IMG/VR virus record: IMGVR_UViG_3300032278_003247
Span: 1 to 23,937 of that record
Reading direction: 5' to 3' (one strand)
From: a virus
Length of the DNA stretch: 23,937 bases
The notes beneath the pieces are model-generated. The model saw only the letters and a list, made by a program, of their open reading frames with translations. It had not been told where the DNA came from and ran no database searches. Shown here piece after piece: positions 1 to 23,694 of the stretch. Position 1 is the stretch's first letter. Each line of letters begins with the position of its first letter. A program made the translations under genes and the position numbers.

Positions 1-2
1 AT

Positions 3-566
3 TCATTGTTGGAGCTCCATGAATCGCTCGAGGAGGCCTGTGTAAAGGTCATCGCGTGGTAAGCCGGCTGCCTTGAAGCGAGCGATAAGAGGTGGAATTT
101 CGGCTTGCAACGCCCTCGCGCGGCGTGCTTTCCAAAGTACTTGATGACGCAGCAGGCCAAGGTTTAGCTGCTTGACGATGTATTGGCCAAGAACCGACTT
201 ACCAATAATCCGCCCTTCTTCATCACGCTCGATATGATCATCGTAGTCGGCACAGCACGGGTCAATGAACCCTTCTGATCCATCATGATGGCTGGCTGCA
301 TCGGCACCGGTCCACTTGCTGGACTTGTGAATGTTGCAGAAGCGACAGGCGTAGACGAGGTTCGTATAAGTGCAGGTCAGATCAGGGAAGCGCACCTTGG
401 GTGCGAAGTGGTCAATGTGGAAGCAAATTGCGTCGACGCACCAATCACTGTCGTCGCAGTAGCCACAACAGCCATTGAAGTCCTGCCTTAGCTCATTGCG
501 ATAGTCTCTGTAGTTGGTGCGTGCGGGCACAGCCGAACGTGTCGGCTTGATATCTTGTATTTTCAT
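3..566 (-). CDS. HNH endonuclease, probable effector of a three-gene signalling/nuclease operon
   Basis: This 187-residue protein carries a complete HNH (beta-beta-alpha metal) nuclease motif: C34-x2-C37, H50-I-D-H53, N69, C74-x2-C77 followed by N78, then K81 and K84. The two CxxC pairs probably hold a structural zinc, and the His residues of the HIDH block are the expected catalytic and metal-binding site. The local pattern (CGYC, HIDHF-PK, Y-NL, C-FCN-HK) resembles the HNH class of the Septu PtuB/TIGR02646 proteins, so DNA or RNA cleavage is the expected activity. The start lies two bases after the stop of the receiver gene and has no Shine-Dalgarno of its own, which suggests translational coupling. 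The stop (3-5) is inside the window, so the gene is complete. The C-terminal 100 residues are not recognised. The nuclease assignment is firm; a defence role is inferred from context. Confidence 0.85.
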   Translation of the reverse strand: MKIQDIKPTRSAVPARTNYRDYRNELRQDFNGCCGYCDDSDWCVDAICFHIDHFAPKVRFPDLTCTYTNLVYACRFCNIHKSSKWTGADAASHHDGSEGFIDPCCADYDDHIERDEEGRIIGKSVLGQYIVKQLNLGLLRHQVLWKARRARALQAEIPPLIARFKAAGLPRDDLYTGLLERFMELQQ

Positions 567-568
567 TT

Positions 569-1243
569 CTATTCGCCCGTCGGCTTTTCTTCGGCGGTTG
601 GGCCGTTCTCCAACGCTCGCTTCATTTCAGTGACGAGCCGCTCAGTTTCTTCGAGCAGCCCATCGCGCACATCGAACAGCGACTTTTTCGTGTCTGCCGG
701 TAGCGCCATATCGCTTCCTATGCTCGACTCTAGCTTGCCGTCGAGTTCGAGGATACGTGCGATATCTGCGGCATTGCGATCTGATTGCGCAATCGCCATC
801 AACGCTTCCAGTTCGGAACTCCAAGTAGCCAACTGCTGTTCATAGCGCTCGATCTGGAGTGCGATGCGATGGAACAAGGTTCGACCTGCGCGTTCGTCAT
901 CCCGCGGATTCTTGGAGTAAATCCTGTTCACGTCTGCTGAGGTGCGTAAGGCATCATCCTCAAATGACGTGCGGATGAAACAAGGGAATTCCTTTCGAAT
1001 TGAGAGGAATTTCGCAACGAGGTCTTCGCCGGAATAGCTTAGCGGACCGGCATCAGATAGGTTGAAGTCAGTCACGAGGGCTTCAATTTTGAGCTCTATC
1101 AACTCTGCCAAGGTAACGTTGATGTCCGGATTTGGCGCAATCAGATGAATATTCTCAAATAGTTCGCTGTCGTAGGCGTCACCGAAGAAATTATCCCGTT
1201 CATCTTGCTGTTCGTCCACATATGCAATGCTTGGTCGTGGCAT
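569..1243 (-). CDS. Receiver-domain (response-regulator-like) protein with helical C-terminus
   Basis: This is a 224-residue protein. Residues 1-115 have the layout of a CheY-like receiver: acidic pair D10/E11 after a short beta strand, a probable phosphoacceptor D59 in LVTDFNL, T92/S93 at the switch position and K111 in YSKN. The remaining ~110 residues are charged and helix-forming, with no DNA-binding domain visible, so it is unlikely to be a transcription factor. It starts nine bases after the stop of the GHKL/kinase gene, with AAGGGG (the kinase gene's last codons) as a possible ribosome-binding site, and ends two bases before the HNH gene. Known of the family: receivers accept phosphate from a kinase His. 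Inferred here: it relays the state of the upstream ATPase to the HNH protein. The sequence is divergent, so a degenerate, non-phosphorylated receiver is possible. Confidence 0.72.
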   Translation of the reverse strand: MPRPSIAYVDEQQDERDNFFGDAYDSELFENIHLIAPNPDINVTLAELIELKIEALVTDFNLSDAGPLSYSGEDLVAKFLSIRKEFPCFIRTSFEDDALRTSADVNRIYSKNPRDDERAGRTLFHRIALQIERYEQQLATWSSELEALMAIAQSDRNAADIARILELDGKLESSIGSDMALPADTKKSLFDVRDGLLEETERLVTEMKRALENGPTAEEKPTGE

Positions 1244-1252
1244 ATTCGTCGT

Positions 1253-3844
1253 TCACCCCTTATGATCTGTGGAGCGGGAAGTTTCCTTTTTGGGGAAGCT
1301 GATCGAGATAAAAAAACCTGGTTCGCCGACTGCGGACATCGAATTGATGCGACCCTGATAGTCGTCGACGATAGTCTTAAGCAGCCACATTCCGATGCCA
1401 GTGCCGGTAATCTCGGTATCGTCACGATCAGATTTCGACGATCGACCATAGGCGAAAATTTCTTCGGGTGTTTTGAAGTTGGAAGAAAGGCCCGGCCCGG
1501 TGTCCCGATAAATGACGGTGATCGTCGTCTCACTATCGCCAACGAGTTCGATACCGATTTGTCGATTGGTGATACCGGACGGCAGTGCGAAGGCCTCGAT
1601 CGAGTTAATGATAAGGTTGTAGAAAATGCTATCGATATCAATCTCGTGAGCGAGAATTTGAAAAGCCCCATCCTCTGGGCTGGACGCAATTAACTCGATC
1701 TGCTTCGAAACTGTGAATTCGCGCCAATATTCGACAAGTCCATCCAAATACTCCCTCATGTCGATCCTGCGCTTGCGGCGCTTGACAGGAGATACAGAGG
1801 CCAGCGCGAAGTCGACCCAGCGACTTACCTTCTCGTCTTCACGGCCCCAGCGCTGTACGATGTCGAAAGGGTTGACCTGATTGGGAACGGCTCCGAGCAG
1901 CTGGGGGTCGACCACCCTCTTCAAAGCATTTTCCATGCGCGTCTGGCGCAATTCCATGTTTGCCTTGATCTGCTTGAGCTCATGAGTGAAGGAGACCAGC
2001 ACTGTTCCCAAAGTCGCCATCCCGCGCAGTACTTGGATGTTATCTTCAAGGTTGGTGGTGAGTTGCTTTTGGGATTTGAGGGCGGACGCTAACAGGATAC
2101 TGTTAGCAGCATCATCTGAGGGTGATTGACCTGGTGTTGACGAAGGCGCCGGATCGGTCTTCTGCTCTTGGTTGGTAGCCGCCGCTTCAGCGAGAATTTT
2201 GTCGGCAAGCGCATTGCCGTCATCAAGTGTCTTCTGCTGTGGGTGGTCCCTGTCATAGGCAGTACTGAAATTGTTGAGGATGTAACTCCGATCACTCTCA
2301 AAGTCGCGAATCAGTGCAAGGATGATGCGGCGAAAGGTTGCAAAGGCACGTTCATTCATGATGCCTTCGCGATTCGACTGGTCGCTCAATAAAGGGTTAT
2401 CTGCCTTGGTGATATGAATGGTGCCAGCAAGCTGTTGCGGTGGCACTCGCCAACCTATTCGCTTGGCTGCGGCCGGATTTGCTGCGACACGTTGGCCAAG
2501 CAGTAGCCAGTCCGAGCCCTGAGTATTGGGCTCGCCATACGGGCGTACCCGGAATTGGTCCCGATACAACCGTATCCCTCCGGACTGGCGCAACCATCGT
2601 CTCCGTTTACTGACGTCGAACGATTTCTGTGGATATCGCAGCAGGTTATCGGCCGTCGGGTTAGATAGCTTCATGAAGTAGAGCGTAAAGTCGAAGGGCC
2701 CTATTGCGAGATAATCTCGCTCGTCCTGCTCATCCTTCAGATTGAGGATGTTGCGCAGACTCGTTACATAGTGGTATGAGCCTTTTTCGAAATCCGATTG
2801 CCGGAAGCCATCTGCATTCATGGCTGGCAATGCGAAGACGGTCGGGCGTATCTTGGCTGCTTCGATTTCCTGCCGTTCGATAAGTATGTCGACGTTCCCA
2901 TCTTCTTTGACCTTGGCGGTCAACCGGTAATCGAATTGATCCGGGGGGAGATTGTCGATCCAGCCCGATTCCTCAGCCTCACGATGATCATAAACGTAGA
3001 TGTTGAAGCCGCCACGGTCCCGCGGTGGCAGCAGGGCTTCAAGCGTCTCCTTGAGCTTAATGCTGTCCCGTGCATCCCATCTGTCGTGAAGTCGCGAGAT
3101 CCGGATCGCGGTGCCATGATGGAAGTTTACAGCGTTGCCTTGGCACGCATCTTGTCCCTCGGCTGCCGGTAGCCTTGTCGGAAGAATGGTCTCGAGCTGC
3201 TGCTCCTGATAAACCGTCGACATTGTGCGTGCCTCAACTTCGATCACTGCCGATACGTCATCAATGATCTTTCCTTCACCTTCAAAGTCACCCCAGTCGA
3301 CAATCCAGTGGACGATATCCGCACGATTGCGCTCACCAGAGAATAACTCGCACTCTTGGCCGAGCCGGTCCAGCGCGAAGCGACCGATGCCCTTGGCACC
3401 GGTGACCACGCGACCACCTGCCGAAAGTCCATTCATCTCCTTCGCGTCGGTACCAATGACCATCCAATGGTTTTCGATGATGGCAGCCGACATGCCACTA
3501 CCGTTATCGACGATCCAGAGATCAAGGACATGGTCGAGTGCGGCTTCAAGGTTGGACTGATCGGTGGTGGAGATTTCGGCAGACAGGATGGACTTGCCGT
3601 CTTCAGCGGCTTCATAGCAGCGTCTAATGTCAGGGAATATGGCCTCAAGCTCGGTGAGCTCAGAGTCCGACAGTGTCTTTGGTGGCTGTTCATGACGACG
3701 AACGAAGAGGATTGCGCAGGCCGACGCATCGGCATCATAGGTATTCTTGACGAGTTCAGTGACGGCGCCTTGGGACGTGGCGACATTCTCGCGACCGATC
3801 AAGCGGGCAGCGCGGGCTGAAACGCGAAAGGGAATTTTGACCAT
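1253..3844 (-). CDS. Double GHKL protein: Hsp90/MutL/MORC-like ATPase plus histidine-kinase-like core
   Basis: This 863-residue protein has two Bergerat-fold ATPase signatures. The first has E30-x3-N34 with D37 (N box), DNGSGM at 113-118 and GAKGIGR at 149-155. It is followed by a middle region ending in a QLAG-IHITK-NP segment and NREG at 491-494, the arrangement of HATPase_c_3 (Hsp90/MutL/MORC-like) proteins. A low-complexity linker (about 535-580) leads to a helical segment with FTHE (H621-E622), which resembles a histidine-kinase dimerisation/phosphoacceptor helix. Then comes a kinase-type ATP lid: N743 and N747, DTGPGL 781-786, and GTGIGM 814-819. No transmembrane helix is visible, so it should be cytosolic. 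An in-frame TAG lies 12 bases upstream of the start, so the ATG at 3844 is the first possible ATG; no clear Shine-Dalgarno precedes it. The gene is lower in GC than the phage genes. It probably senses a signal and acts through the receiver protein encoded next. Confidence 0.82.
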   Translation of the reverse strand: MVKIPFRVSARAARLIGRENVATSQGAVTELVKNTYDADASACAILFVRRHEQPPKTLSDSELTELEAIFPDIRRCYEAAEDGKSILSAEISTTDQSNLEAALDHVLDLWIVDNGSGMSAAIIENHWMVIGTDAKEMNGLSAGGRVVTGAKGIGRFALDRLGQECELFSGERNRADIVHWIVDWGDFEGEGKIIDDVSAVIEVEARTMSTVYQEQQLETILPTRLPAAEGQDACQGNAVNFHHGTAIRISRLHDRWDARDSIKLKETLEALLPPRDRGGFNIYVYDHREAEESGWIDNLPPDQFDYRLTAKVKEDGNVDILIERQEIEAAKIRPTVFALPAMNADGFRQSDFEKGSYHYVTSLRNILNLKDEQDERDYLAIGPFDFTLYFMKLSNPTADNLLRYPQKSFDVSKRRRWLRQSGGIRLYRDQFRVRPYGEPNTQGSDWLLLGQRVAANPAAAKRIGWRVPPQQLAGTIHITKADNPLLSDQSNREGIMNERAFATFRRIILALIRDFESDRSYILNNFSTAYDRDHPQQKTLDDGNALADKILAEAAATNQEQKTDPAPSSTPGQSPSDDAANSILLASALKSQKQLTTNLEDNIQVLRGMATLGTVLVSFTHELKQIKANMELRQTRMENALKRVVDPQLLGAVPNQVNPFDIVQRWGREDEKVSRWVDFALASVSPVKRRKRRIDMREYLDGLVEYWREFTVSKQIELIASSPEDGAFQILAHEIDIDSIFYNLIINSIEAFALPSGITNRQIGIELVGDSETTITVIYRDTGPGLSSNFKTPEEIFAYGRSSKSDRDDTEITGTGIGMWLLKTIVDDYQGRINSMSAVGEPGFFISISFPKKETSRSTDHKG

Positions 3845-4131
3845 ATTGACCGTCTAGCTCTTGTCCGTTGTCCGCAAGTGTCCCCTTATTAATCAGGTTC
3901 ATGCAGCGGGAACACAAGCCTTTGCGATGCGGGCCCATTTCGCTGAAGATTTTTTGGCCAAAGTAAATTGCTGAGGGAGGCACTGCGGCATGACGACCTC
4001 TTCCGGTCCCACGCCGCAACTGTCAATCGAGCGCTCTCTATCTCTGCAGCAAACGGCTGCGCCAACGCTCGCTGCCGGATGGCGCATCGGCGCTGGTAGA
4101 TGCCCCGGCCGAGGCGTCCTGACACCGGCGA
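3845..4131. other. Spacer between lysis cassette and the GHKL/receiver/HNH operon
   Basis: These 287 bases separate the spanin stop from the start of the three-gene operon. The short reading frames here (for example minus strand 4019 to 3756) have no recognisable domain and overlap the N-terminus of the ATPase gene. No intrinsic terminator with a T tract follows the spanin genes, and no convincing sigma-70 promoter is visible before the operon; a TAATAA at about 3890 on the minus strand lacks a well-spaced -35. It may hold a degraded gene fragment or part of an attachment region, but neither can be shown. Confidence 0.4.
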
Positions 4132-4383
4132 TCAGTCAGCGCACACCCGCGCCTGTGCCCGCATAACCGCATAATCCGCCATCATCCCGACCAGCGCGGC
4201 ATCTTCGGGCAGCGCCTCCAGCTCCGCCGCCGCCCGGTCCCGTACCGCCTGATCGTAAGCCACAACCGGCGGGCAGCCCGCGCGGCCCGGATCAGAACCG
4301 CCCGTCGCGCAGGCGGTCAGCGAGATCATCGCGATCACGAGGGCGGGTGCTGGATGCCTCCAGCATGCGGCGTTGGATGTCAT
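4132..4383 (-). CDS. Outer-membrane spanin lipoprotein (Rz1-like)
   Basis: This 83-residue protein has a hydrophobic stretch (about 13-22) ending in the lipobox LTAC with C25, the mark of signal peptidase II cleavage and lipidation. The mature part contains CPPV-Y, LPEDA and DYAVMRAQARVC, a pattern common in Rz1-like proteins of alphaproteobacterial phages. The gene overlaps the 3' part of the Rz-like gene by 92 bases in another frame, the classic Rz/Rz1 nested arrangement. A GGAG about 8 bases before the ATG supports this start; M19 is an internal alternative but would cut the signal sequence. Expected role: it joins the inner spanin across the periplasm and fuses the membranes in the last step of lysis. 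Confidence 0.75.
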   Translation of the reverse strand: MTSNAACWRHPAPALVIAMISLTACATGGSDPGRAGCPPVVAYDQAVRDRAAAELEALPEDAALVGMMADYAVMRAQARVCAD

Positions 4384-4546
4384 TCTGGCGCTCCATCTGT
4401 TTCAGACGCTCGGCATGGCGACCGGCGATTTCGCCCGCCCGTCGCAGGTTGAGGAGGAAAAGAAGGACCGCGCCGATCAGCGCGATCCCGATGGCCAGAT
4501 GCCGCGCCCAGCGCGACGCCATCAGCGCAGTCAGGACGCCCATCAC
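4292..4546 (-). CDS. Inner-membrane spanin (Rz-like)
   Basis: This is an 84-residue protein with one transmembrane helix (about 17-34) near the N-terminus. It is followed by a charged, coiled-coil-prone helix (about 36-65) and a short basic/acidic tail. Length and topology fit a small i-spanin: N-terminus anchored in the inner membrane, periplasmic coiled coil reaching toward the outer-membrane lipoprotein encoded in the overlapping gene. It shares an ATGA overlap with the endolysin stop, so the lysis genes are translationally coupled. Primary sequence alone would not identify it; the call rests on topology, overlap with the lipoprotein gene and position after the endolysin. Confidence 0.7.
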   Translation of the reverse strand: MMGVLTALMASRWARHLAIGIALIGAVLLFLLNLRRAGEIAGRHAERLKQMERQNDIQRRMLEASSTRPRDRDDLADRLRDGRF

Positions 4547-5217
4547 CGCTGCCCCCGGTTCCAGTCGTCGAGCCGGGCCCAGATTGCCAGGCCGATCCCG
4601 GCCAGCGCCAGAGCGATGAAGGCCCAGCGCAGGGTGTCGAGATAGGGGATCAGCGGCTGGATCGCGGTCTGCGCATCGCTGAGGGTGTCCTGGGCAATTT
4701 CGATGCCTGCCGCACTGAGCGTTGCCAGTCCTGCCGCGCCACTACCCTTCATCGTGCGGCTGTCCGACAGATGTTCCCGCGCGGGCGGCTGATCCTCGGC
4801 GAAGGGGATAGTGCGGGCCGGGAAGGGCTCGCCCCAGCGCCGGGCGGGGCCGAGATCGATATGCATGAAGCCCGAGCGGGGATAAGTACCAAAACCCAGA
4901 AACCCTTCCGCCCGCGCGGCTTTCTCGAAGGCCGCCGGATCGTGATTGGCCATGGAGATGTCGAAGGCGATGCCCTCAAGATGCTTTGAGCGTTTGGCAC
5001 CACGCACCCGGGCATTGTGCTCGGGGCTGCGATAGGCTGAATTGACGATCAGCGGCTTGTCGAGACGGCTGCGCAGCGCCTGCAGCCGGTCGAGGGCTGC
5101 GTCATGGATCAGGATCGATCCGGTGCCGCGGCAGGCGATTTCGGCGGGCGAGAAGTTGGGCCAGCGCCAGCTGTCTTTCGGCACATCGCGCCAGTGGCGG
5201 TAGAAACGGGTGGTCAT
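4543..5217 (-). CDS. Endolysin: M15-type peptidase with C-terminal membrane anchor
   Basis: This 224-residue protein has a peptidase M15_3 (D-Ala-D-Ala carboxypeptidase-like) domain over residues ~15-125. The zinc site is visible as S-K-H79-x6-D86 and H119 in GFMHIDLG, and SAYRSPEHN (60-68) is also typical. It should cut peptide cross-links in peptidoglycan. After a variable linker a hydrophobic segment (about 197-214) forms a probable transmembrane helix near the C-terminus. That is unusual for a soluble endolysin and suggests membrane tethering. A strong GGAGGA lies 5 bases before the start. An intrinsic terminator sits directly upstream and the ATGA overlap with the Rz-like gene lies downstream, so this is the first gene of the lysis cassette. 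Confidence 0.88.
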   Translation of the reverse strand: MTTRFYRHWRDVPKDSWRWPNFSPAEIACRGTGSILIHDAALDRLQALRSRLDKPLIVNSAYRSPEHNARVRGAKRSKHLEGIAFDISMANHDPAAFEKAARAEGFLGFGTYPRSGFMHIDLGPARRWGEPFPARTIPFAEDQPPAREHLSDSRTMKGSGAAGLATLSAAGIEIAQDTLSDAQTAIQPLIPYLDTLRWAFIALALAGIGLAIWARLDDWNRGQR

Positions 5218-5235
5218 CAGGATCCTCCGGATACG

Positions 5236-5259
5236 AAAAAGCCCGCCGGGATGGCGGGC
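5236..5259 (-). terminator. Intrinsic terminator between the tail/holin genes and the endolysin
   Basis: On the minus strand a 7-bp perfect GC stem (5259-5253 pairing with 5247-5241; arms GCCCGCC and GGCGGGC, five-base loop) is followed by five T residues (5240-5236). It lies 46 bases after the stop of the DUF6127 gene. The Shine-Dalgarno of the endolysin follows a few bases after the T run, with no room for a promoter in between, so endolysin expression probably depends on read-through or antitermination. Confidence 0.65.
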
Positions 5260-5305
5260 CGTGGGGTGATGGGATTGTGGTGGTCGGTGTGAGCCGCACA
5301 GCGGC

Positions 5306-5593
5306 TCAGCCGCCGTGGCCGAAGAGTTTCAGCTTCAGCGCAATCCCGGCCAGCAGCGTCAGGATGAGACCTGCGGTCAGCATGCGGATGATTGTCTGGG
5401 CAGCGGTGCGGCGCATCAGGCGGATGCCCTCCAGCAGCGCCCGCAGATCGCGGATATCGAGCGCGGCTTCCTTGCCGTCGAGCCCGGCATCGACAAGGGC
5501 GCGTCGGGCACCTTCCTGCGCGGCCCTTGCCAGCAGTTCTTCAAACTCGCTCTCGCTCATCTGCAACATGTCATCGAGACGTTTGGGTGTCAT
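5306..5593 (-). CDS. DUF6127 family small membrane protein, holin candidate
   Basis: This 95-residue protein is mostly a charged amphipathic helix, with the family-typical GARRAL and DIRDLRALLEG blocks (about 28-56), then one hydrophobic helix (about 70-90) ending in KLKLFG. It matches the DUF6127 proteins found next to lysis genes in alphaproteobacterial phages. A single C-terminal transmembrane helix and position right before the endolysin make a holin or holin-accessory role plausible, but this is inference; DUF6127 has no function that I know to be proven. Its start overlaps the DUF2793 stop by ATGA. Confidence 0.7.
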   Translation of the reverse strand: MTPKRLDDMLQMSESEFEELLARAAQEGARRALVDAGLDGKEAALDIRDLRALLEGIRLMRRTAAQTIIRMLTAGLILTLLAGIALKLKLFGHGG

Positions 5594-6666
5594 CCGATCT
5601 TCGCTCCCCAGAATGTCGTGTGGTCGGCGGCGAAATACCCATCCGCCGCGCGAAAGCTGCCCTGCAGCGCGACGGTGTCGCCCGCACCCAGCGGGACCAT
5701 CGTCTGCAACCAGAGCGCTGTCGCCTCGGACACATGCGCCCCGGAAATCTCGCCGAACGATCCCCGGATCTCGGTCGATCCGTTCAGGACCAGCCGCCCG
5801 CGCATCCGGGCGTTGCTGCTGGCATTGATCTTGAAGAGCAGCGATGCGCCGAGGAGATATGTTCCCGCGACCGGCGCGACGAAACGGTTGGTCGAGGCAT
5901 CGAAACAGCCTTGATCATTATATTCGGCCACATTGATGCCGAGCGTCGTCCAGCTATCGGTCGCCACGTAATTGTCAAAATTCGTCCAGGCCTTGAAGCG
6001 CGGCAGGTTTGGCTGATCGACGATGCCCGTCTCCGGATCGACGCCCAGCGCATCGCGGAAATTGCTGCCGTCGGGCGAGACGGCGATGCGCAGCTGGTCC
6101 GATCCGAAGAGGCCGATCAGCGCCCGGGTCGAGAAATCCGTCTGCAGGATCAGCCCGGCATCGTCGCCCGCTGTTTCCCGGTTCAGTGTCTGGGTCAGGT
6201 CGCCGCTGCCGCCATCGGCTGTATAAAGCGCGGTCCAGAGGGCGCTGTTCAGCTTGGCCGAAAAGGGCGCGCCCGCGCCCGCTGCCATGCCGATGCCGAG
6301 ACGGGTCAGATTGTCGAGGGCAGTCGGGATCACCGGCCGCCAGCTCACGTCGGTCCGGACCAGCAGGACCGCCTCATCCTCGACCCATGCCCGCCAGCCC
6401 TCGCGCGGCGGCAGGCGCAGCCAGATGCCATCGGTCCAGAGGGCGACATTCAGATCCCAGCCCGCCCAAGCCCCGGTCGCGCCGGAGGCGACGATATAGC
6501 GGTCGCCATCTGCCGGGCTCGCGGGCGGCGCGGTCAGTTCCCGGCTCTTCACGGAAAGCTGCACCAGCCCGTCGAGCAGGCGCAGGGCCTCATTATGGGT
6601 GACGTGTTTCTGCGCCTGCGCCGCCATCAGATATGGCAGCAGCAGGTTCGTCGTGCTGTCGGACAT
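5590..6666 (-). CDS. DUF2793 tail-associated protein with C1q-like C-terminal domain
   Basis: This is a 358-residue protein. Residues ~8-105 match DUF2793: the opening LLLPYLMAAQAQKHVTHNEAL, the PADGDRYIV block and the W-rich G-W repeats. The middle part is less conserved. Residues ~225-358 look like a C1q/TNF-type jelly roll: F-A-W opening, FDASTNRFVAPVAGTYLL in the core and a closing aromatic FWGAKIG strand. Such domains form trimers and bind ligands at fibre tips. Position after the tail-tip gene suggests a fibre or receptor-binding component. The DUF2793 call is firm, the C1q call is from pattern, and the receptor role is inference. Confidence 0.83.
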   Translation of the reverse strand: MSDSTTNLLLPYLMAAQAQKHVTHNEALRLLDGLVQLSVKSRELTAPPASPADGDRYIVASGATGAWAGWDLNVALWTDGIWLRLPPREGWRAWVEDEAVLLVRTDVSWRPVIPTALDNLTRLGIGMAAGAGAPFSAKLNSALWTALYTADGGSGDLTQTLNRETAGDDAGLILQTDFSTRALIGLFGSDQLRIAVSPDGSNFRDALGVDPETGIVDQPNLPRFKAWTNFDNYVATDSWTTLGINVAEYNDQGCFDASTNRFVAPVAGTYLLGASLLFKINASSNARMRGRLVLNGSTEIRGSFGEISGAHVSEATALWLQTMVPLGAGDTVALQGSFRAADGYFAADHTTFWGAKIG

Positions 6667-6684
6667 TTTTGGGCTTCCCGGTCT

Positions 6685-9600
6685 TCAGAGATAAAGCGTG
6701 GTGGTGATGGCCGTGCCGCGCCCGATGCGGGCCGAGATCTGGCAGATGCGGATCGTCAGGCTGTCACCCTGGGTCAGTTCTGCGCCCCAATCGGCGACCT
6801 GCTGCGCGGCGGTGTAGATGACCGAGGGCGCATTGCTGGTCAGAGTCCGCTTCACATCAGCGCCTGCCATGACCCGGATCTCGTAGCCTTCCAGTTCCTC
6901 GCCCAGTGGCACTTCCATGCCCTGCCAGCTGTCTGCGGCGAGGCTGCGGGAGCGCCGTGTCCATCGGATCACCAGATCGCCCGGCACATGTGGGCGTCGC
7001 CATGGCTGGTCGACATGGACCGGCGAGAAGGGCCGCAGCCCTGCGCCCTCGGGTGCGAAGGTAAGGGCGGCGAAGGTCTCGCTGCTGACCGGATGACGGG
7101 CGGGCCCGATGCGCCAGTTGAAAGGAATGCCAAGATCGCCTTCCGAAATCGGCAGCGGGGTCAGGGCCTCGTTCAGCAGGACCACCCGTGCCCCGGCCGG
7201 GGTCGGATTGCCCATGGCCTGTTCGGTGCCGCGCTGGCCGCGCAGGAGCCGGGTCAGGCGGTATCGCCCCGGCGCTATCAACTCGGCATGGCGCGCCTGT
7301 ACGATCTCCCAGCGGCCCGGCGCGGATTCCACGGCCAGCGCATTGGCGCCACCGAAGAGGGCCAGATCGCTGACGCTGTCCAGCTGGCCGCTGGCGAGAT
7401 CGAGGGTCAGCACGTTGCCCATGTCAAAGCGGGAGGTGGGGCCGGGCCAGAGGTCCGAGACCAGACGACCCATGTTCGCACGGCGACGCACAGTCGTCAC
7501 CAGTTCGAACCCATCCTCGCCGGGGCTGCGATACACGGCCAGCGCGCCGGGCCAGGGTTTTGCGGTGGCGGCGATCAGCGGCTGATGGGCGGGGATCTCG
7601 TCCCGCAACTGAGGTAGATCCAGCAGAATCACCTCGGGAGGTCCGAATGTCACGGCACGGGGCAGGGTGGCGGGTCGCTCGGCGCCGGGCGGCAGATCAT
7701 AGGCCTCGCGGTCCTGCCGCACGGCTTCGATGCCGCGCGCTTCGGCATCGGCAATGGCGGTCAGGCGGAACTGCTGCTGGCGCCCGTTGTGATCCAGCGC
7801 GATGACATCCGTCGGATCCAGCGCCAGTTTCGAGGGTGGCAGGCGGAAGACGGCGCTTTCCCGACCTGCCCAGGCTTCCTGCAGGGCGCGACGGCAGCGG
7901 CGCTCGGCCTCTTCGGGCGGCACCGCCATGGGAAAGCTCTCAGAGGCGATGCGGCTGGTGTCCACGGTGATGCGCGCGGCCTCGACCAGCGCCGCGTCAT
8001 AATCCTCATCGGCCCGGGCCACCTGCCATTTGAGCGCCTGTGGCAGTTCGGTTTCTTGGGCCCTAGTCAATTCGATCGCCTCGCCATCGCCTGTCGATAC
8101 AAGATCTTCATGGGCGATGGCGGCAACCGGCGCTCGGCCGCGCATGATGAAGCGGATGACGCCCTCGCTTTCGACCGCATCGAAGCCGAAATGCCGCGCC
8201 AGTGTTGTGATCGAGGCACGGGGGCTTTCGAGCGCGGTGATCGCATAGCCCTCGGTCGCGCCCCAGAGACCCGAGACATCGATGCGGGATTCCGGCAGCC
8301 CGGCGCGCAGGCAGAGATGGCGGACGAGGGCCGCGAGTGACACCGCGCCCAGCCGTCCGGTCAGCCAATGTCCCAGCCGCCAGTTGGCGCCATCGGTCCA
8401 GACATCGCCCAGCGCCGGAAAGAACGGATAGGGTCGGGCATCCCAGGTCCAGGCGGCGCATTCCGAAACTTCGACCATGCGACCGGCATATTCCGTCGAG
8501 ACCGGTTTGTTCGATGCCTTGCCCCAGAAGAGATAGCTGGCCTCCAGATAGGCCCGCTGGATGGCATCGTCGCGCCAGCCCCGCGAATGGTAGGGCACGA
8601 AACTTTCCGACGACTTCGGGTCATAGAAAACATTCGGCTGGTTGGTGCCCCGGTCGATGGCCGGGCAACCGAGTTCCGTGAAGCGGATCGGTTTTGACCC
8701 GGGCAGCCATGGCGTCGGTGTCGCAGCCTCGACACCGCCCGGCCGGTCGTAGTGGCGGTTCGACCACCAGGCCCGCAGATCTTTGGGGCGGAACACCCAG
8801 GGCTTGCCATGGGCACCGTCGGTGATCGGCGTCCGGACCTGTGCAGACCGATCCGCCTCCGAGGCATAGAACCAGTCGAAGCCCTCGCCGCCGGAAACAT
8901 TCGATTGCAGATAGGCACGGTCATGGATCGCTGGCCATCCGTCTCGGGCGTCCAGATGATCGAAGCCGTCGCGCCAGTCCGAGAGCGGCAGATAGTTATC
9001 GATGCCGATGAAATCGAGATTCTGGTCCGCCCAGAGCGGATCGAGATGGAAGAACACATCGCCGCTGCCGTCACTTGGCTGATGCCCGAAATATTCCGAC
9101 CAGTCGGCGGCATAGCTGATCTTCGTGCTCGGCCCGAGGATGGCGCGCACATCGGCGGCCAGCGTGCGGAGGGCGGCGATGGCAGGATAACTGTTCAATC
9201 CCGACCGGATTGTGGTCAGCCCGCGCATCTCGGAACCGATCAGAAAACTGTCCACGCCGCCTGCTGCCGCGCAGAGATGGGCGTAGTGCAGCACCATGCG
9301 GCGCAGCCCATGATCGGCCGGATCACCCGCCCAGCGTACATCCTCGCCGCTGACGTTGAAATCGCCCGTGCTGGCCGTGCCAAAGAAAGCCGCGACCTGA
9401 TCCCCGGCAGCCGACATCTTGTCGACGCTGCCCGCCTGACCGGCGGCAGGCGAACAGGTGATCCGCCCGCGCCAGGGAAAAGCGGGCTGGCCAGTCCCGG
9501 CGGCATGGTCAGAATAGGGATCCGGCAACACATTGCCCGGCGGCACATCCATGAGGATGAAGGGATAGAAAGTGACGCGCAGCCCGCGTGCCTTCATTTC

Positions 9601-10647
9601 CCGGATCGCCTGCACCACCGCGAAATCCGCTGGCGTGCCGCCATAGACCGGGCGATCCAGATCATCGCGACTGACGAGATGGGCATCGGCCCGGCTGACA
9701 CCATTCACAGACCATGTTTTTGGGGTACTGGCCTTCTCGGCCACCTCGACGCCCGGCCGGATGGTGCAATGCCCGCAGCGCAGATCGTTGCCGAACCAGG
9801 CCACCACCAGACTGACGCTTTCCACTTTCGGCGCCATGGCCTGCAGCCGGTCCAGCGCCACGATCATGTCCGGGCTGTCCGGCATGGCGTTCAGGTTCTC
9901 GGCCGAGGTGGAGCCATTGCCGCCCTTGCGCACCGGCTCGGTGGCATAAGTGAATTCGCCCGAGGCCGGGATCAGGGTCACAGCGCGGGTCAGCCCCTCG
10001 GCGGTATCCGGATCGGCCAGCGGCCGAAAGACCTCGAAGGAAAGCTGCGGCAGGCGATTGCCGTAATCACTCAGCGGCAGATCCTCGAAGACAACATAGG
10101 CCGTGCCGCGAAAGGCAGGTGTTTGGTCCGCACCCATGGTGGCGGTGATAAAGGGATCAGCCTCCTGCGTCTCACTGCCGGGATACCAGCGCCAGGTGAC
10201 GCCCGAGGTATCGAGCGGCTTGCCGTCGGCCCAGATACGCCCGATGCCGGTAATCTCGCCCTCCGCCAGTGCCACCGCGAAGGACGCATAATAGAGATAT
10301 TCCGTGGTCTCGACCTTGGGACCGCCGCCCTTGCCGCCGCCCTGTCGGCTGGTTTTGGTTTCCTCGCGGAAATCGGTGGCCCAGACGATGTTGCCGCCCA
10401 TGCGCATGCCGCCGAAGACGCGCGGAATGACCGCGCCCTCGGTCGAGGCGGTGATGCGCAGATTGTCGAGCCGCGCGCCTTCGATGCGCTGGGCGGGGGC
10501 GAGGGAGGAGACGATCCAGCTGTCCACGGCCGCGCCGATGGTCGATCCGATCATGCCGCCGATGGCAGCGCCGGAAAAACCGAGGATCGCGCCCCCGAAG
10601 CCGCCGCCAATCGTGGCGCCGACCGAAGCCAGAACAAGTGTAGCCAT
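6685..10647 (-). CDS. GTA-type TIM-barrel baseplate/tail-tip megaprotein
   Basis: The protein is about 1320 residues. It begins with a Gly-rich hydrophobic segment (ATIGGGFGGAILG onward, about 8-45). A glycoside-hydrolase-like TIM barrel of the GTA_TIM family covers about 420-720 (GSEMRGLT near 471, FTELGCPAIDRG near 654). A Phage-tail_3-type domain follows (about 790-950), and near 1130 lies RYRLTRLLRGQRGTE, typical of this family. This is the equivalent of the large host-contact protein of the Rhodobacter gene transfer agent tail; it forms the tail-tip hub and may cut surface glycans. I place the start at 10647 (MATLVLA), 11 bases after the NlpC/P60 stop. An upstream ATG at 10704 would give 1339 residues but add a non-family N-terminus overlapping the previous gene by 46 bases. 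Confidence 0.9.
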   Translation of the reverse strand: MATLVLASVGATIGGGFGGAILGFSGAAIGGMIGSTIGAAVDSWIVSSLAPAQRIEGARLDNLRITASTEGAVIPRVFGGMRMGGNIVWATDFREETKTSRQGGGKGGGPKVETTEYLYYASFAVALAEGEITGIGRIWADGKPLDTSGVTWRWYPGSETQEADPFITATMGADQTPAFRGTAYVVFEDLPLSDYGNRLPQLSFEVFRPLADPDTAEGLTRAVTLIPASGEFTYATEPVRKGGNGSTSAENLNAMPDSPDMIVALDRLQAMAPKVESVSLVVAWFGNDLRCGHCTIRPGVEVAEKASTPKTWSVNGVSRADAHLVSRDDLDRPVYGGTPADFAVVQAIREMKARGLRVTFYPFILMDVPPGNVLPDPYSDHAAGTGQPAFPWRGRITCSPAAGQAGSVDKMSAAGDQVAAFFGTASTGDFNVSGEDVRWAGDPADHGLRRMVLHYAHLCAAAGGVDSFLIGSEMRGLTTIRSGLNSYPAIAALRTLAADVRAILGPSTKISYAADWSEYFGHQPSDGSGDVFFHLDPLWADQNLDFIGIDNYLPLSDWRDGFDHLDARDGWPAIHDRAYLQSNVSGGEGFDWFYASEADRSAQVRTPITDGAHGKPWVFRPKDLRAWWSNRHYDRPGGVEAATPTPWLPGSKPIRFTELGCPAIDRGTNQPNVFYDPKSSESFVPYHSRGWRDDAIQRAYLEASYLFWGKASNKPVSTEYAGRMVEVSECAAWTWDARPYPFFPALGDVWTDGANWRLGHWLTGRLGAVSLAALVRHLCLRAGLPESRIDVSGLWGATEGYAITALESPRASITTLARHFGFDAVESEGVIRFIMRGRAPVAAIAHEDLVSTGDGEAIELTRAQETELPQALKWQVARADEDYDAALVEAARITVDTSRIASESFPMAVPPEEAERRCRRALQEAWAGRESAVFRLPPSKLALDPTDVIALDHNGRQQQFRLTAIADAEARGIEAVRQDREAYDLPPGAERPATLPRAVTFGPPEVILLDLPQLRDEIPAHQPLIAATAKPWPGALAVYRSPGEDGFELVTTVRRRANMGRLVSDLWPGPTSRFDMGNVLTLDLASGQLDSVSDLALFGGANALAVESAPGRWEIVQARHAELIAPGRYRLTRLLRGQRGTEQAMGNPTPAGARVVLLNEALTPLPISEGDLGIPFNWRIGPARHPVSSETFAALTFAPEGAGLRPFSPVHVDQPWRRPHVPGDLVIRWTRRSRSLAADSWQGMEVPLGEELEGYEIRVMAGADVKRTLTSNAPSVIYTAAQQVADWGAELTQGDSLTIRICQISARIGRGTAITTTLYL

Positions 10648-10658
10648 GTATGGAAATC

Positions 10659-11093
10659 TCAGATGCTGGGGAAGAGAAAGGCGAAAGCGATGCGTCGCTG
10701 CCAAGCAGGCGTCAGAGGTTCCTCGATGACGCCCAGCCGCTCATAAGCATGGATGAAGCGGTCCTGCGTGGTCAGGATGCCGACATGTTTGGCAATGGCG
10801 CCGGGGCGCATGCGGAACAGGACCAGCGCGCCCGGACCGGCTTCCGTGACCGGCAGCTCGATCATCATCCGCCGTGCGCCCTCGGCCAAGACTTCGTGGC
10901 AACCCGTCTCGCCCCAATCGCGGCTATAGGGCGGGATCGGAAAGGGCTCATCGCCCACAACCTCCCGCCAGACGCCGCGCGCCAGCCCGAGGCAGTCGCA
11001 ACCGACACTCTTCAGGCTGGCCTGATCGTGATAGGGCGTGCCGAGCCAGCCACGCGCGGCGGCGATGATGCGGTCCGGATCGGCGGGCCTCAC
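10659..11093 (-). CDS. NlpC/P60-family tail peptidase
   Basis: This 144-residue protein has the NlpC/P60 fold pattern: GTPYHDQ at 18-24, the catalytic Cys in GCDCLGL (C34 by alignment to DCSGL, with C32 two residues before), catalytic His H103 in AKHVGIL, and H115 as probable third polar residue. It corresponds to the GTA cell-wall peptidase placed between DUF2163 and the TIM-barrel protein, and should locally open peptidoglycan during DNA entry. It overlaps the DUF2163 stop by ATGA. Its last codons run to 10659, just before the start I chose for the tail-tip gene. Confidence 0.9.
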   Translation of the reverse strand: MRPADPDRIIAAARGWLGTPYHDQASLKSVGCDCLGLARGVWREVVGDEPFPIPPYSRDWGETGCHEVLAEGARRMMIELPVTEAGPGALVLFRMRPGAIAKHVGILTTQDRFIHAYERLGVIEEPLTPAWQRRIAFAFLFPSI

Positions 11094-21205: not shown

Positions 21206-22186
21206 GATCATCTCCTGTTGAGGGTGAGGGTTCGAAAGGGTCTGGGTGGCTGGTGTCCGCCCGATCTGCACAGCCGGGCGGTTCACGCTTTCAGTGAAGG
21301 CGCGGAAGGCGGTGCGGGGATCGGCCACGGCATCGGCGAGACCGGCCTCCACAGCCGCCGCGCCGCGAAAAACTGCCGCTTCGGTGGCCAGCGCCGTGTC
21401 TCTGCTGAGTTTTGCGCCGCGCCCTGCCGCCACCGTTTCCGCGAAGAGGATGCGCAGATCCTCCAGCTCCGCCTGCAGCCGGTCGCGGATGCCCTCGGGC
21501 AGGGCGGCATAGGGATTGCCATCGGCTTTCCGGGCCCCGGCATGGATCAGCGTCACCGCGACGCCCTTTTGGGCCAGCATGCCGGACATGTCGGTATGCA
21601 TGGTGATGACACCGATGCTGCCCGCCGCCCCGGTGCGGGGCAGGGTGATGCGGGTCGCCTGCGAGGCCAGCGCATAGCCCGCCGACAGCGCATGTTCGGC
21701 AAGAAAGGCATGCACCGGTTTGACATCTTGCGCCGCGCGGATGCGGTCGGCGAGATCGAAGGCCCCGGCGACCTCGCCGCCGAAACTGTCGATCTCCAGC
21801 GCGATGCCGCGAATGGCCTTGTCAGAAACCGCCGCGTCGATCTGGTCGGCGAGACCCTCATAGGAGGTCAGGCCCGAACTCTGGCCGATCCAGGCGCCGC
21901 GATGGACCAGCGTTCCGGCAATGGCAATCACCGCCACGCCATCGATGATCGGGAAGGGCGCGTCTGCGTCATTACCATGGCGCTGGGCGAGATCGCCGCC
22001 GATCAGCGAGGCACGGGCCGTCTGCCGCGCGGCCGTCAGATCGGGTTCGGCGACCGCCATGCCGTCAAAGCGAATTTCCTGCCCGGTGATGCGGGGTCCG
22101 AGGCCGGAGAGAAAGGCCAGCGCCTTGGCCGGGGCGATCATCAGCGGCGTGTCGAAGGCGCGCTGGGCGATCTGGGCGTGATGCAT
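20792..22186 (-). CDS. Prohead S49-type protease with C-terminal scaffold domain (lambda gpC-like)
   Basis: This 464-residue protein carries an S49/SppA-like (ClpP-fold) protease domain over ~80-280: EIDSFGGEVAGAFDLAD (131-147), nucleophile S168 in EHALSAGYALAS, oxyanion-side GSIGV (189-193) and probable general base K220 in AGARKADGNPY. The remainder (about 300-464) is Ala/Pro/Gln-rich and helical, as in scaffold proteins, and is also made separately from an internal start. It should cleave scaffold and portal during head maturation. Its ATG shares one base with the portal stop (TGATG), indicating coupled translation. Confidence 0.92.
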   Translation of the reverse strand: MHHAQIAQRAFDTPLMIAPAKALAFLSGLGPRITGQEIRFDGMAVAEPDLTAARQTARASLIGGDLAQRHGNDADAPFPIIDGVAVIAIAGTLVHRGAWIGQSSGLTSYEGLADQIDAAVSDKAIRGIALEIDSFGGEVAGAFDLADRIRAAQDVKPVHAFLAEHALSAGYALASQATRITLPRTGAAGSIGVITMHTDMSGMLAQKGVAVTLIHAGARKADGNPYAALPEGIRDRLQAELEDLRILFAETVAAGRGAKLSRDTALATEAAVFRGAAAVEAGLADAVADPRTAFRAFTESVNRPAVQIGRTPATQTLSNPHPQQEMIMSDQTDADAQTPDPQAAAPDATAAPTQTASSTAQEPAAVPPAPVTAAAATQSDADAIRAEAAEVASICAQAAKLGVALDAADAVRRGVSPDALRGQILDSLAAKSDASGILASAPAPTNKSSPLVAAARKSADSASR

Positions 22187-23694
22187 CAGCGATCCTCCTT
22201 GAATTTGTCGTCTTCGTCATCAGGGTCAGCGGCAGGATCGTCATCATCGTCTTTGCCGTCGGTGGCATCGCTGCCATCGCCAGCTGCCTCGCCCTTCGAC
22301 CCCTGCGCGGGCGAGCCGGGGCGACGGAAGTCGAGGCCCAGCGCCGCTTCGCGTTTCCGCTCGGCCGCGATCTCGCGGTCGACCTGTTCGGCGTCATAGC
22401 CGCGCTCAGATATGGCCTGGCTGCGGGATTTGAGGCCCGCCTCGATCTGCAGGATCTCGGCCGAGGCATCCTTCATCGGATCGACCCAGTCCCAGCGCGT
22501 CGGCAGCCAGCTGACCGCCTGAAAGCTGCGCCGGTTGCGGTCATAGTCGGGCAGGTCGATGGCGCCGGACAGCACCGCCAGATCGAGCCAGCGCTGCCAG
22601 ATTGGGCGGCAGAGCTGATGCACGATCACGCTGTGCTGGATCGCCGAGACCCGGCGCCGAAAATCCAGCAGCGCCACCCTCGTGTTCGAGAAATTGCCGC
22701 GCGCCGCATCGCCGGTCAGATACGGGTAGGGAATGCCCAGCGCCGCCGCGATCTGCAGCAAGGTCCGGTATTGGAAGGGTTCATAGGTCGAGCCTGAATC
22801 CGGTGTGGCAGGCGTCGAGACATCCTCGCCCGGGTCCAGACGGACCACCTGACCGGGCTCGACCTCGAGATCCTCTTCCGCCGGTTCCAACGGCGTTTCC
22901 GGGGCGGGCGAGGTGATGAACATCGCAAACATCGCCGCGGTCTTCTTTCGCTCCAGCTCGGCATCGTCATAGAGATCCAGCGTGAAGAGTTTGACGATGG
23001 CCGGGGCGAAACGCGACACGCCGCGCAGCTGTCCGGCCTCGACCGGGTCCAGCAGATGGACGATCTCCGAGGCCTGAACGCGCACCGTCTCGCCTGCCAG
23101 CCCCGGATCGGTCATGTCGCCCGGATGGCGGCGGAGCAGGTGATAGGCCACGCGCCGCCCGATGCCGTCGAATTCGATGCCCTGACGGATGGACCCGCCG
23201 CCGGCCAGTTCCCGGTTCAGATCCATCGGCAGCATCTCCGAGGGCAGCATCTGCAGTTGCAGCGGTACCGACAGCCCGTCCTCGGGTCGTCGCGGACGCA
23301 ACCGCAGAAACACCTCGCCCGCCAGAAACAGTTCCCGGGCTGCGCGACGCTGCAACCCGTAGAAATCCGTCAGCCCCTCGGCATCGGTCTCGTCGGTCCA
23401 GGTGAGCCAGAGCTTCTGCAATTGCTCTTTCTGCCCGGCATTGGCGATGGAGGAGGAGGGTTTGATCCCATCGCCGACGACATTGCTGGCAAAGGCCTCG
23501 ACCGCACCGGATGCATAGCCATTGTTCCGGGCCAGCCAACGGGCGCGGGCCGTGATCGTTTCGCCCGCGCCCGCGATCAGGGTGTTCACATGGGCGCGAC
23601 TGGCGCGGAATCCGCGCAAGCGACGATGCGATTGCGCCGCATCGAACCCGCCGATGATGGCGCCGAGGCGTTGGCGGATGCCGTCAAACGCCAT
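22186..23694 (-). CDS. Portal protein (lambda gpB family)
   Basis: This 502-residue protein matches the lambda portal family: ARARWLARNNGYASGAVEAFASNVVGDGI near 48-76, RELFLAGEVFLRLRPR (about 120-135), QMLPSEMLP, the RVAYHLLRRHPGD block, EIVHLLDPVEAGQLRGVSRFAP and GIPYPYLTGDAARGNFSN. The C-terminus is acidic with runs of Asp (about 480-498). It forms the ring at the capsid vertex through which DNA is packaged. It lies three bases after the gpW-like gene. Confidence 0.94.
   Translation of the reverse strand: MAFDGIRQRLGAIIGGFDAAQSHRRLRGFRASRAHVNTLIAGAGETITARARWLARNNGYASGAVEAFASNVVGDGIKPSSSIANAGQKEQLQKLWLTWTDETDAEGLTDFYGLQRRAARELFLAGEVFLRLRPRRPEDGLSVPLQLQMLPSEMLPMDLNRELAGGGSIRQGIEFDGIGRRVAYHLLRRHPGDMTDPGLAGETVRVQASEIVHLLDPVEAGQLRGVSRFAPAIVKLFTLDLYDDAELERKKTAAMFAMFITSPAPETPLEPAEEDLEVEPGQVVRLDPGEDVSTPATPDSGSTYEPFQYRTLLQIAAALGIPYPYLTGDAARGNFSNTRVALLDFRRRVSAIQHSVIVHQLCRPIWQRWLDLAVLSGAIDLPDYDRNRRSFQAVSWLPTRWDWVDPMKDASAEILQIEAGLKSRSQAISERGYDAEQVDREIAAERKREAALGLDFRRPGSPAQGSKGEAAGDGSDATDGKDDDDDPAADPDDEDDKFKEDR

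Follow-up and report, generated by a model that had tools for sequence, protein, structure and literature searches.

Why would a virus carry a histidine kinase with two ATPase domains, and what would such a kinase control? The question is raised by the gene found at positions 1253–3844 (minus strand) of the IMG/VR record IMGVR_UViG_3300032278_003247, a 23.9-kb record classed as viral, which we analysed over its 23,937 nucleotides (hereafter the window). A preliminary description of this DNA proposed that the gene product combines two GHKL ATPase folds with a possible phosphoacceptor histidine, and that it is a sensor which closes on DNA or protein and then signals by phosphotransfer. We argue below that this kinase is probably the sensor of a four-gene mobile defence cassette that resembles a restriction–modification (R-M) system, and in which phosphotransfer from the kinase to a receiver would gate a nuclease.

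Architecture and conservation of the kinase

The open reading frame encodes a protein of 863 amino acids, contains no internal stop, and has full-length homologues that are 54–61% identical. Two Pfam profiles match the protein above their curated cut-offs: HATPase_c_3 in the N-terminal half (E 3.1e-13, best stretch 107–195) and HATPase_c at the C-terminus (E 1.5e-9, residues 734–852). From the alignment and a structural model, which give approximate residue borders, we read the order of the modules as GHKL, transducer, helical linker, DHp and CA.

The N-terminal GHKL module (about residues 1–270, window 3035–3844, minus strand) is defined by Pfam, by the alignment and by Foldseek matches to topoisomerase VI-B and Hsp90. 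It carries the N box ELVKN..DA as motif I (E30, N34 and D37), DNGSGM as motif II (113–118), GAKGIG as motif III (149–154) and GT as motif IV (244–245). Motifs I and II are separated by an insertion of about 60 residues (about 50–105, window 3530–3700), which the alignment shows in the aligned proteobacterial cassette kinases and not in those of Bacteroides or Deinococcus. The next region (about residues 271–480, window 2405–3034, minus strand), delimited from invariant columns and secondary structure, carries the conserved GIRLYRDQFRVRPYG in invariant alignment columns, and a conserved DQSNRE motif (488–493) lies just past it. The match to topoisomerase VI-B suggests that this region is an S5-like transducer.

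The DHp helices (about residues 601–685, window 1790–2044, minus strand) are recognised from the conservation of H621, from long helices and from Foldseek matches to HK853 and ZraS. H621 (codon 1982–1984) and the adjacent E622 belong to an FTHE motif (619–622), and the AlphaFold2 model has long helices at 576–644 and 659–682. The C-terminal CA (HATPase_c) domain (about residues 690–852, window 1289–1777, minus strand), supported by Pfam, the alignment and Foldseek, contains N743 and N747, DTGPGL (781–786) and GTGIGM (814–819). The protein has what characterizes a two-component kinase: a His–Glu pair in a long DHp helix, and a CA domain with N, G1 and G2 boxes.

We aligned 30 homologues, the window protein included, from genomes, plasmids and viral contigs. 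All 30 have the residues of the first ATPase (E30, N34, D37, D113, G115, G117, G149, K151, G152 and G154) as well as H621, N743, N747, G814, G816 and G818; E622 is kept in 28, and the residue four positions after the histidine, which is the usual phosphatase position, is variable. The conservation of the catalytic motifs and of H621 across these homologues indicates that both ATPases and the phosphoacceptor histidine are under selection.

The full-length AlphaFold2 model, built from a nine-sequence alignment, is of moderate quality (mean pLDDT 72.6, pTM 0.55, residues 1–18 below 50). Compared with the PDB using Foldseek, it matches the histidine-kinase cores of ZraS, HK853 and CpxA, with E-values as low as 7e-12; topoisomerase VI-B and Hsp90 form a separate group of matches, with E-values of about 5e-10 to 1e-9. 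On the basis of this model, we read the kinase as an N-terminal Bergerat ATPase with a transducer, followed by a C-terminal kinase core. A sequence search of solved structures recovered the CA half only, and the N-terminal half emerged from the fold search; the Hfq matches returned by the sequence search were dismissed as chance. The presence of two GHKL folds in one polypeptide, as claimed in the preliminary description, is borne out both by the two profiles and by the model, which matches histidine kinases as well as topoisomerase VI-B and Hsp90; the motifs that it had listed, from the N box to GTGIGM, are all where it had placed them, and its candidate phosphoacceptor, H621, lies in a DHp helix and is conserved in every homologue. 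Neither of the two outcomes that would have refuted the description, a single Bergerat fold or a histidine that is not conserved, was thus observed.

The receiver, the nuclease and the methyltransferase

The gene that begins nine bases past the kinase gene (569–1243, minus strand) encodes a response-regulator-like protein of 224 amino acids. A Pfam search of this protein returns no receiver match, and the assignment is based on AlphaFold2, Foldseek and residue conservation. The model, of good quality (pLDDT 85.6), has five beta/alpha units, in which D59 and T92 close strands 3 and 4, respectively, and K111 comes immediately after strand 5; Foldseek matches it to PorX, PhyR, VraR and other receivers. 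The receiver domain (about residues 1–118) contains the acidic pair D10/E11, the phosphoacceptor D59 (codon 1067–1069), T92 and K111, as expected of a (beta/alpha)5 receiver, and is followed by a helical C-terminal region. D10, D59, T92 and K111 are present in all 15 aligned cassette receivers, so that the aspartate which the preliminary description had named is real. This receiver diverges too far for a Pfam match, and it could bind phosphate weakly. Neither Pfam nor the model reveals a DNA-binding or HTH output domain, and the protein may therefore act as a protein adaptor. Among the PADLOC models, none fits the kinase or the receiver well; the weak V-SNARE and coiled-coil matches to the latter were dismissed as chance.

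Since a conserved DHp histidine faces a conserved aspartate in the receiver encoded directly downstream, the kinase and the receiver are likely a phosphotransfer pair. This part of the sensor originally proposed stands. The other part, a possible closure of the N-terminal module on DNA or protein, is suggested only by analogy, from the topoisomerase VI-B-, Hsp90- and paraMORC-like architecture.

The third gene (3–566, minus strand) begins two bases past the receiver gene and encodes an HNH nuclease of 187 amino acids. It matches the PADLOC PtuB model with an E-value of 6.7e-17, and TIGR02646 with an E-value of 6.4e-9 that lies below the cut-off of this family; the cut-off of the NCBIfam PtuB equivalog is likewise not reached. 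Residues C34, C37, H53, N69, C74, C77 and N78 are conserved in 15 of 15 sequences. HNH enzymes of the PtuB/TIGR02646 type are not known to have a sequence specificity of their own.

The stop codon of the HNH gene overlaps an ATGAAT (positions 1–6, minus strand), and these six bases are suggestive of the start of a methyltransferase gene that the end of the contig truncates: in relatives, the methyltransferase gene overlaps the HNH end, and an in-frame MNF is seen in L028 and L029. Judging from these relatives, the fourth gene probably encodes an N6-adenine DNA methyltransferase. The arrangement of Type II R-M systems, a methyltransferase beside a nuclease, is observed in the relatives, the window's own presumed gene being beyond the contig edge. 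With a PtuB-like HNH encoded by the third gene and, in relatives, an N6-adenine methyltransferase by the fourth, the locus resembles an R-M cassette and is not just a signalling sensor; the preliminary description had missed these two partners, as well as the published architecture and the defence hotspot discussed below.

Distribution of the cassette

The order kinase–receiver–HNH is found in 16 other loci (L002, L003, L005–L009, L014, L028–L033, L117 and L118), whose hosts are Alpha-, Beta- and Gammaproteobacteria, Bacteroides and Deinococcus, in addition to several viral contigs. An adenine-methyltransferase-like gene is near these three genes in all 16. In 10 of them, an M.Eco57I-like methyltransferase gene is directly downstream of the HNH gene; the M.Eco57I C-terminal domain is found in the relatives' methyltransferases, and that of L002 matches, along its entire length, a PADLOC model for Type II methyltransferases (E 3e-117). 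In five others the methyltransferase-like gene is directly upstream of the kinase: it is annotated as Eco57I-type in L009, matches Pfam N6_Mtase or Eco57I in L014, L032 and L117, and in L033 is recognised solely from an NPPF motif, Pfam giving no match. Last, L005 has an N6_Mtase gene about 0.7 kb downstream of the cassette genes.

In 15 loci, the kinase, receiver and HNH genes are separated by −32 to +9 bases (−32 to +8 between receiver and HNH). The pairwise distances of the proteins are correlated (0.96 for kinase and receiver, 0.93 for kinase and HNH, 0.92 for receiver and HNH), values that none of 5000 permutations reach. The shared order, the tight gaps and the correlated distances indicate that the three genes travel together.

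The cassette is rare: besides the seed genome, 2 of the 398 genomes of a phylum sample contain it. Scanning viral contigs with the single kinase sequence gave no relatives, and a profile scan gave nine. Among phage GenBank records, the kinase matched a 13% fragment only, and the phage DNA of the window had no match. A promoter scan detected no sigma-70-like promoter upstream of the first gene, a result that is hardly informative for this host.

In L005, an in-frame TAG breaks the kinase gene of Rhizobium phaseoli (5001–7568, 54% identical), and the receiver and HNH frames are open. In L007 (Salipiger, 3431–5094), an IS66 transposase gene ends just upstream of the kinase, whose open frame reaches only to 4968; the kinase may have lost its start and promoter to the IS66 element.

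Phage context

Outside the cassette, the window consists of a siphophage structural module that encodes portal (22186–23694), protease, capsid, tape measure and tail proteins together with an M15 endolysin-like peptidase (4543–5217). The tail protein encoded at 6685–10704 has GTA_TIM, Phage-tail_3 and Rcc01698_C, which are tail-protein domains of gene-transfer agents, although the record looks like a siphophage or prophage.

The GC content is 0.53 in the cassette against 0.66 beyond it. The prophages L037, L038 and L041–L043 are about 86% identical to the window over the tail genes and colinear with it to about position 4063, where they diverge; together with the GC shift, this places the junction between cassette and phage DNA at 3845–4062. 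In these prophages, defence genes come after the endolysin and one more gene, which by eye may be SRAP/DUF159-like: Gabija GajA/GajB in L041 (PADLOC E 2e-236 and 1e-146), IetA/IetS (Ietas) in L042, and an OLD-type ATPase, RmrA, Vsr and a C5 methylase in L037. The position past the tail and endolysin genes (window 3845–4540) has the appearance of a defence hotspot carried by phages and provides good context for a defence role of the cassette.

Comparison with known systems

The dual-GHKL kinase is not a unique fusion. Kinases made of HATPase_c_3, HEF_HK and HATPase_c, with Response_reg_2 partners and R-M neighbourhoods, were published in 2021 (Bellieny-Rabelo 2021, PMC8011034; Pfam PF19191/PF19192). 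They are like ours in being soluble dual-GHKL kinases with a His–Glu helix and an adjoining receiver-like gene in an R-M neighbourhood, but their reported partners are mostly C5 methylases, Vsr and further nucleases (PMC8011034), whereas the cassette has fixed PtuB-like HNH and N6-adenine methyltransferase partners. At E 1, the HEF_HK profile matches neither the window kinase nor five cassette kinases, and the Response_reg_2 profile matches neither the window receiver nor four cassette receivers; at the level of Pfam, the window kinase is therefore not a HEF_HK member. The distant relatives L015 and L022 match HEF_HK below the cut-off.

MORC and paraMORC ATPases (PMC2292703) also have an N-terminal GHKL module and a transducer, with R-M and HNH neighbours, but the published description mentions neither a kinase core nor a receiver, and the cassette has no helicase. 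The window kinase, a candidate paraMORC member at most, has intact motifs I–IV, a topoisomerase VI-B-like fold and an R-M context.

The closest working precedent is VapKSC, whose adaptor is phosphorylated by a GHKL kinase, an event reported to free a nuclease toxin (PMC13373217); the gene logic is the same as that of the cassette. In VapKSC, as in CapK–CapS (PMC13373217), a GHKL kinase and a phosphoacceptor adaptor control a toxin nuclease or an immune operon; however, these systems use a single GHKL domain and phosphorylation of a serine in a STAS protein, and have no DHp histidine, receiver or methyltransferase.

With Septu and retron PtuAB, the cassette shares an HNH of the PtuB/TIGR02646 kind, but it has neither the PtuA ATPase nor a reverse transcriptase, in whose place are the kinase and the receiver. 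Defence or restriction also relies on a GHKL ATPase and a nuclease as a pair in the GHKL-Shedu protein VcSduA (PMC12137116) and in the restriction enzymes BbrUII/HgiDII, whose GHKL part is similar to the N-terminal module of the kinase (NF050001, E 1.6e-6, below the cut-off); the nuclease of VcSduA is fused, whereas that of the cassette is separate, with a presumed phosphorelay in between. The DefensePredictor study (PMC13092281) depicts a predicted, unvalidated system with HATPase and REC domains.

The architecture of the kinase was already known, and what is new here is its genomic setting. A literature search, with bioRxiv and most subscription journals outside its coverage, returned no paper on a cassette of kinase, receiver, PtuB-like HNH and adenine methyltransferase. 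Detocs, a phage defence system, also combines a histidine kinase with receivers, but it has no GHKL clamp, HNH or methyltransferase, and its effector cleaves ATP.

Proposed mechanism and alternatives

Methyltransferases mark self DNA, GHKL clamps close on ATP binding, and transfer from a DHp histidine to a receiver aspartate is established for families of histidine kinases and receivers. In the mechanism that we propose, the N6-adenine methyltransferase would mark the DNA of the host and of the prophage, and the topoisomerase/paraMORC-like clamp formed by the N-terminal modules of a kinase dimer would sense invading DNA that is unmarked or damaged, or a protein bound to it. Closure of the clamp would drive phosphorylation of His621 by the CA domain, and Asp59 of the receiver would then take over the phosphate. 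As a protein adaptor, the receiver would restrain the HNH nuclease, and its phosphorylation would release or license the latter, which would then cut the DNA of the invader or kill the cell. We infer the contact between adaptor and nuclease and the direction of the switch; the substrate of the nuclease could be DNA or RNA. Several of the observations above weigh against this mechanism: the methyltransferase is deduced from relatives, the receiver is divergent, the residue at the usual phosphatase position varies, this type of HNH is not known for a specificity of its own, and the kinase model is of moderate quality. That the nuclease is the direct output of a His–Asp phosphorelay, the receiver gating it according to the methylation state read by the clamp, is a possibility that we put forward tentatively.

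It may be, instead, that the kinase and the receiver are a two-component regulator of transcription, located beside an ordinary R-M pair (HNH and methyltransferase) whose expression they time like a controller protein, for instance so that a newly entered host is methylated before restriction sets in. Controllers are common in R-M systems, and it has been proposed that kinase–receiver pairs near R-M genes help control them (PMC8011034). We consider this quite unlikely, because the C-terminal region of the receiver is only helical, with no HTH found by Pfam or in the model, and because the close spacing of the receiver and HNH genes in 15 loci suggests one stoichiometric unit. Abortive infection, where the kinase would sense infection and free the PtuB-like HNH against host RNA or DNA, and where the methyltransferase would tune the sensor instead of protecting sites, has in its favour the precedent of VapKSC and the fact that the nearest relatives of the HNH are PtuB/TIGR02646 proteins: retron-Eco7 PtuAB depletes tRNA-Tyr and aborts infection, and Septu PtuAB is reported to degrade DNA (PMC11555353). 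Yet the PtuA partner is absent, and an adenine methyltransferase accompanying kinase, receiver and HNH in every locus better fits the restriction of unmethylated DNA, so that this explanation appears unlikely.

In a last hypothesis, a paraMORC-like ATPase clamps or loops DNA directly for the nuclease, the kinase half being a structural remnant or a dimerisation element. MORC and paraMORC GHKL proteins do occur in R-M operons with nucleases, and are proposed to loop DNA (PMC2292703). On the contrary, His621, N743, N747, the G boxes and D59 of the receiver are invariant among divergent homologues, which is not expected of a remnant; on the conservation of His621 and of the CA motifs we reject the idea that the kinase half is one, and the hypothesis as a whole is very improbable.

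The wider family and significance

In more distant dual-GHKL kinases the histidine is kept and, in the cases that we read, a receiver-type gene comes next, but the partners differ: the Campylobacter kinase (L016) is accompanied by a C5 methylase, that of Hymenobacter (L017) by an N6 methylase together with an MBL-fold protein, and those of Methylorubrum (L019, 3271–4074) and Chlorohelix (L022) by genes of the PAPS-reductase family, Chlorohelix also having DUF4007 (PAPS-reductase and DUF4007 genes at 1–648 and 8719–9534). These PAPS-reductase sets may be DNA phosphorothioation systems, hinting that the kinases of L019 and L022 accompany phosphorothioation or BREX-like systems. The wider theme is a DNA-modifying gene set together with a kinase–receiver pair and an exchangeable effector.

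The distant receivers L016:6665-7687, L020:6626-7699, L018:6456-8498, L019:6489-8510 and L022:6564-8708 share a C-terminal TPxCDL-like motif, with the variants ILTPSCDIV, IMNPACDLA, VVTPACDLI, VMTPSCDLL and IINNECDLT. No Pfam family matches this region among the distant receivers scanned, and it could represent an output domain that has so far escaped description and that keeps a cysteine.

The usual outputs of receivers are genes, second-messenger enzymes and motors. The cassette suggests that two-component signalling can be wired directly to a nuclease, beside a DNA methyltransferase. At a small size of about 5.5 kb, and with copies on plasmids as well as in prophages, it could be moved to a laboratory strain for testing. 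If the reading in which the phosphorelay leads to the nuclease is true, this would be an R-M system that is switched post-translationally and carried by phages and plasmids across phyla. It would add a His–Asp counterpart to the modification systems that are linked to Ser/Thr kinases, Pgl and BREX2, and to the serine-based switch of VapKSC, and the dual-GHKL kinases that are annotated merely as 'sensor histidine kinase' would gain a testable role.
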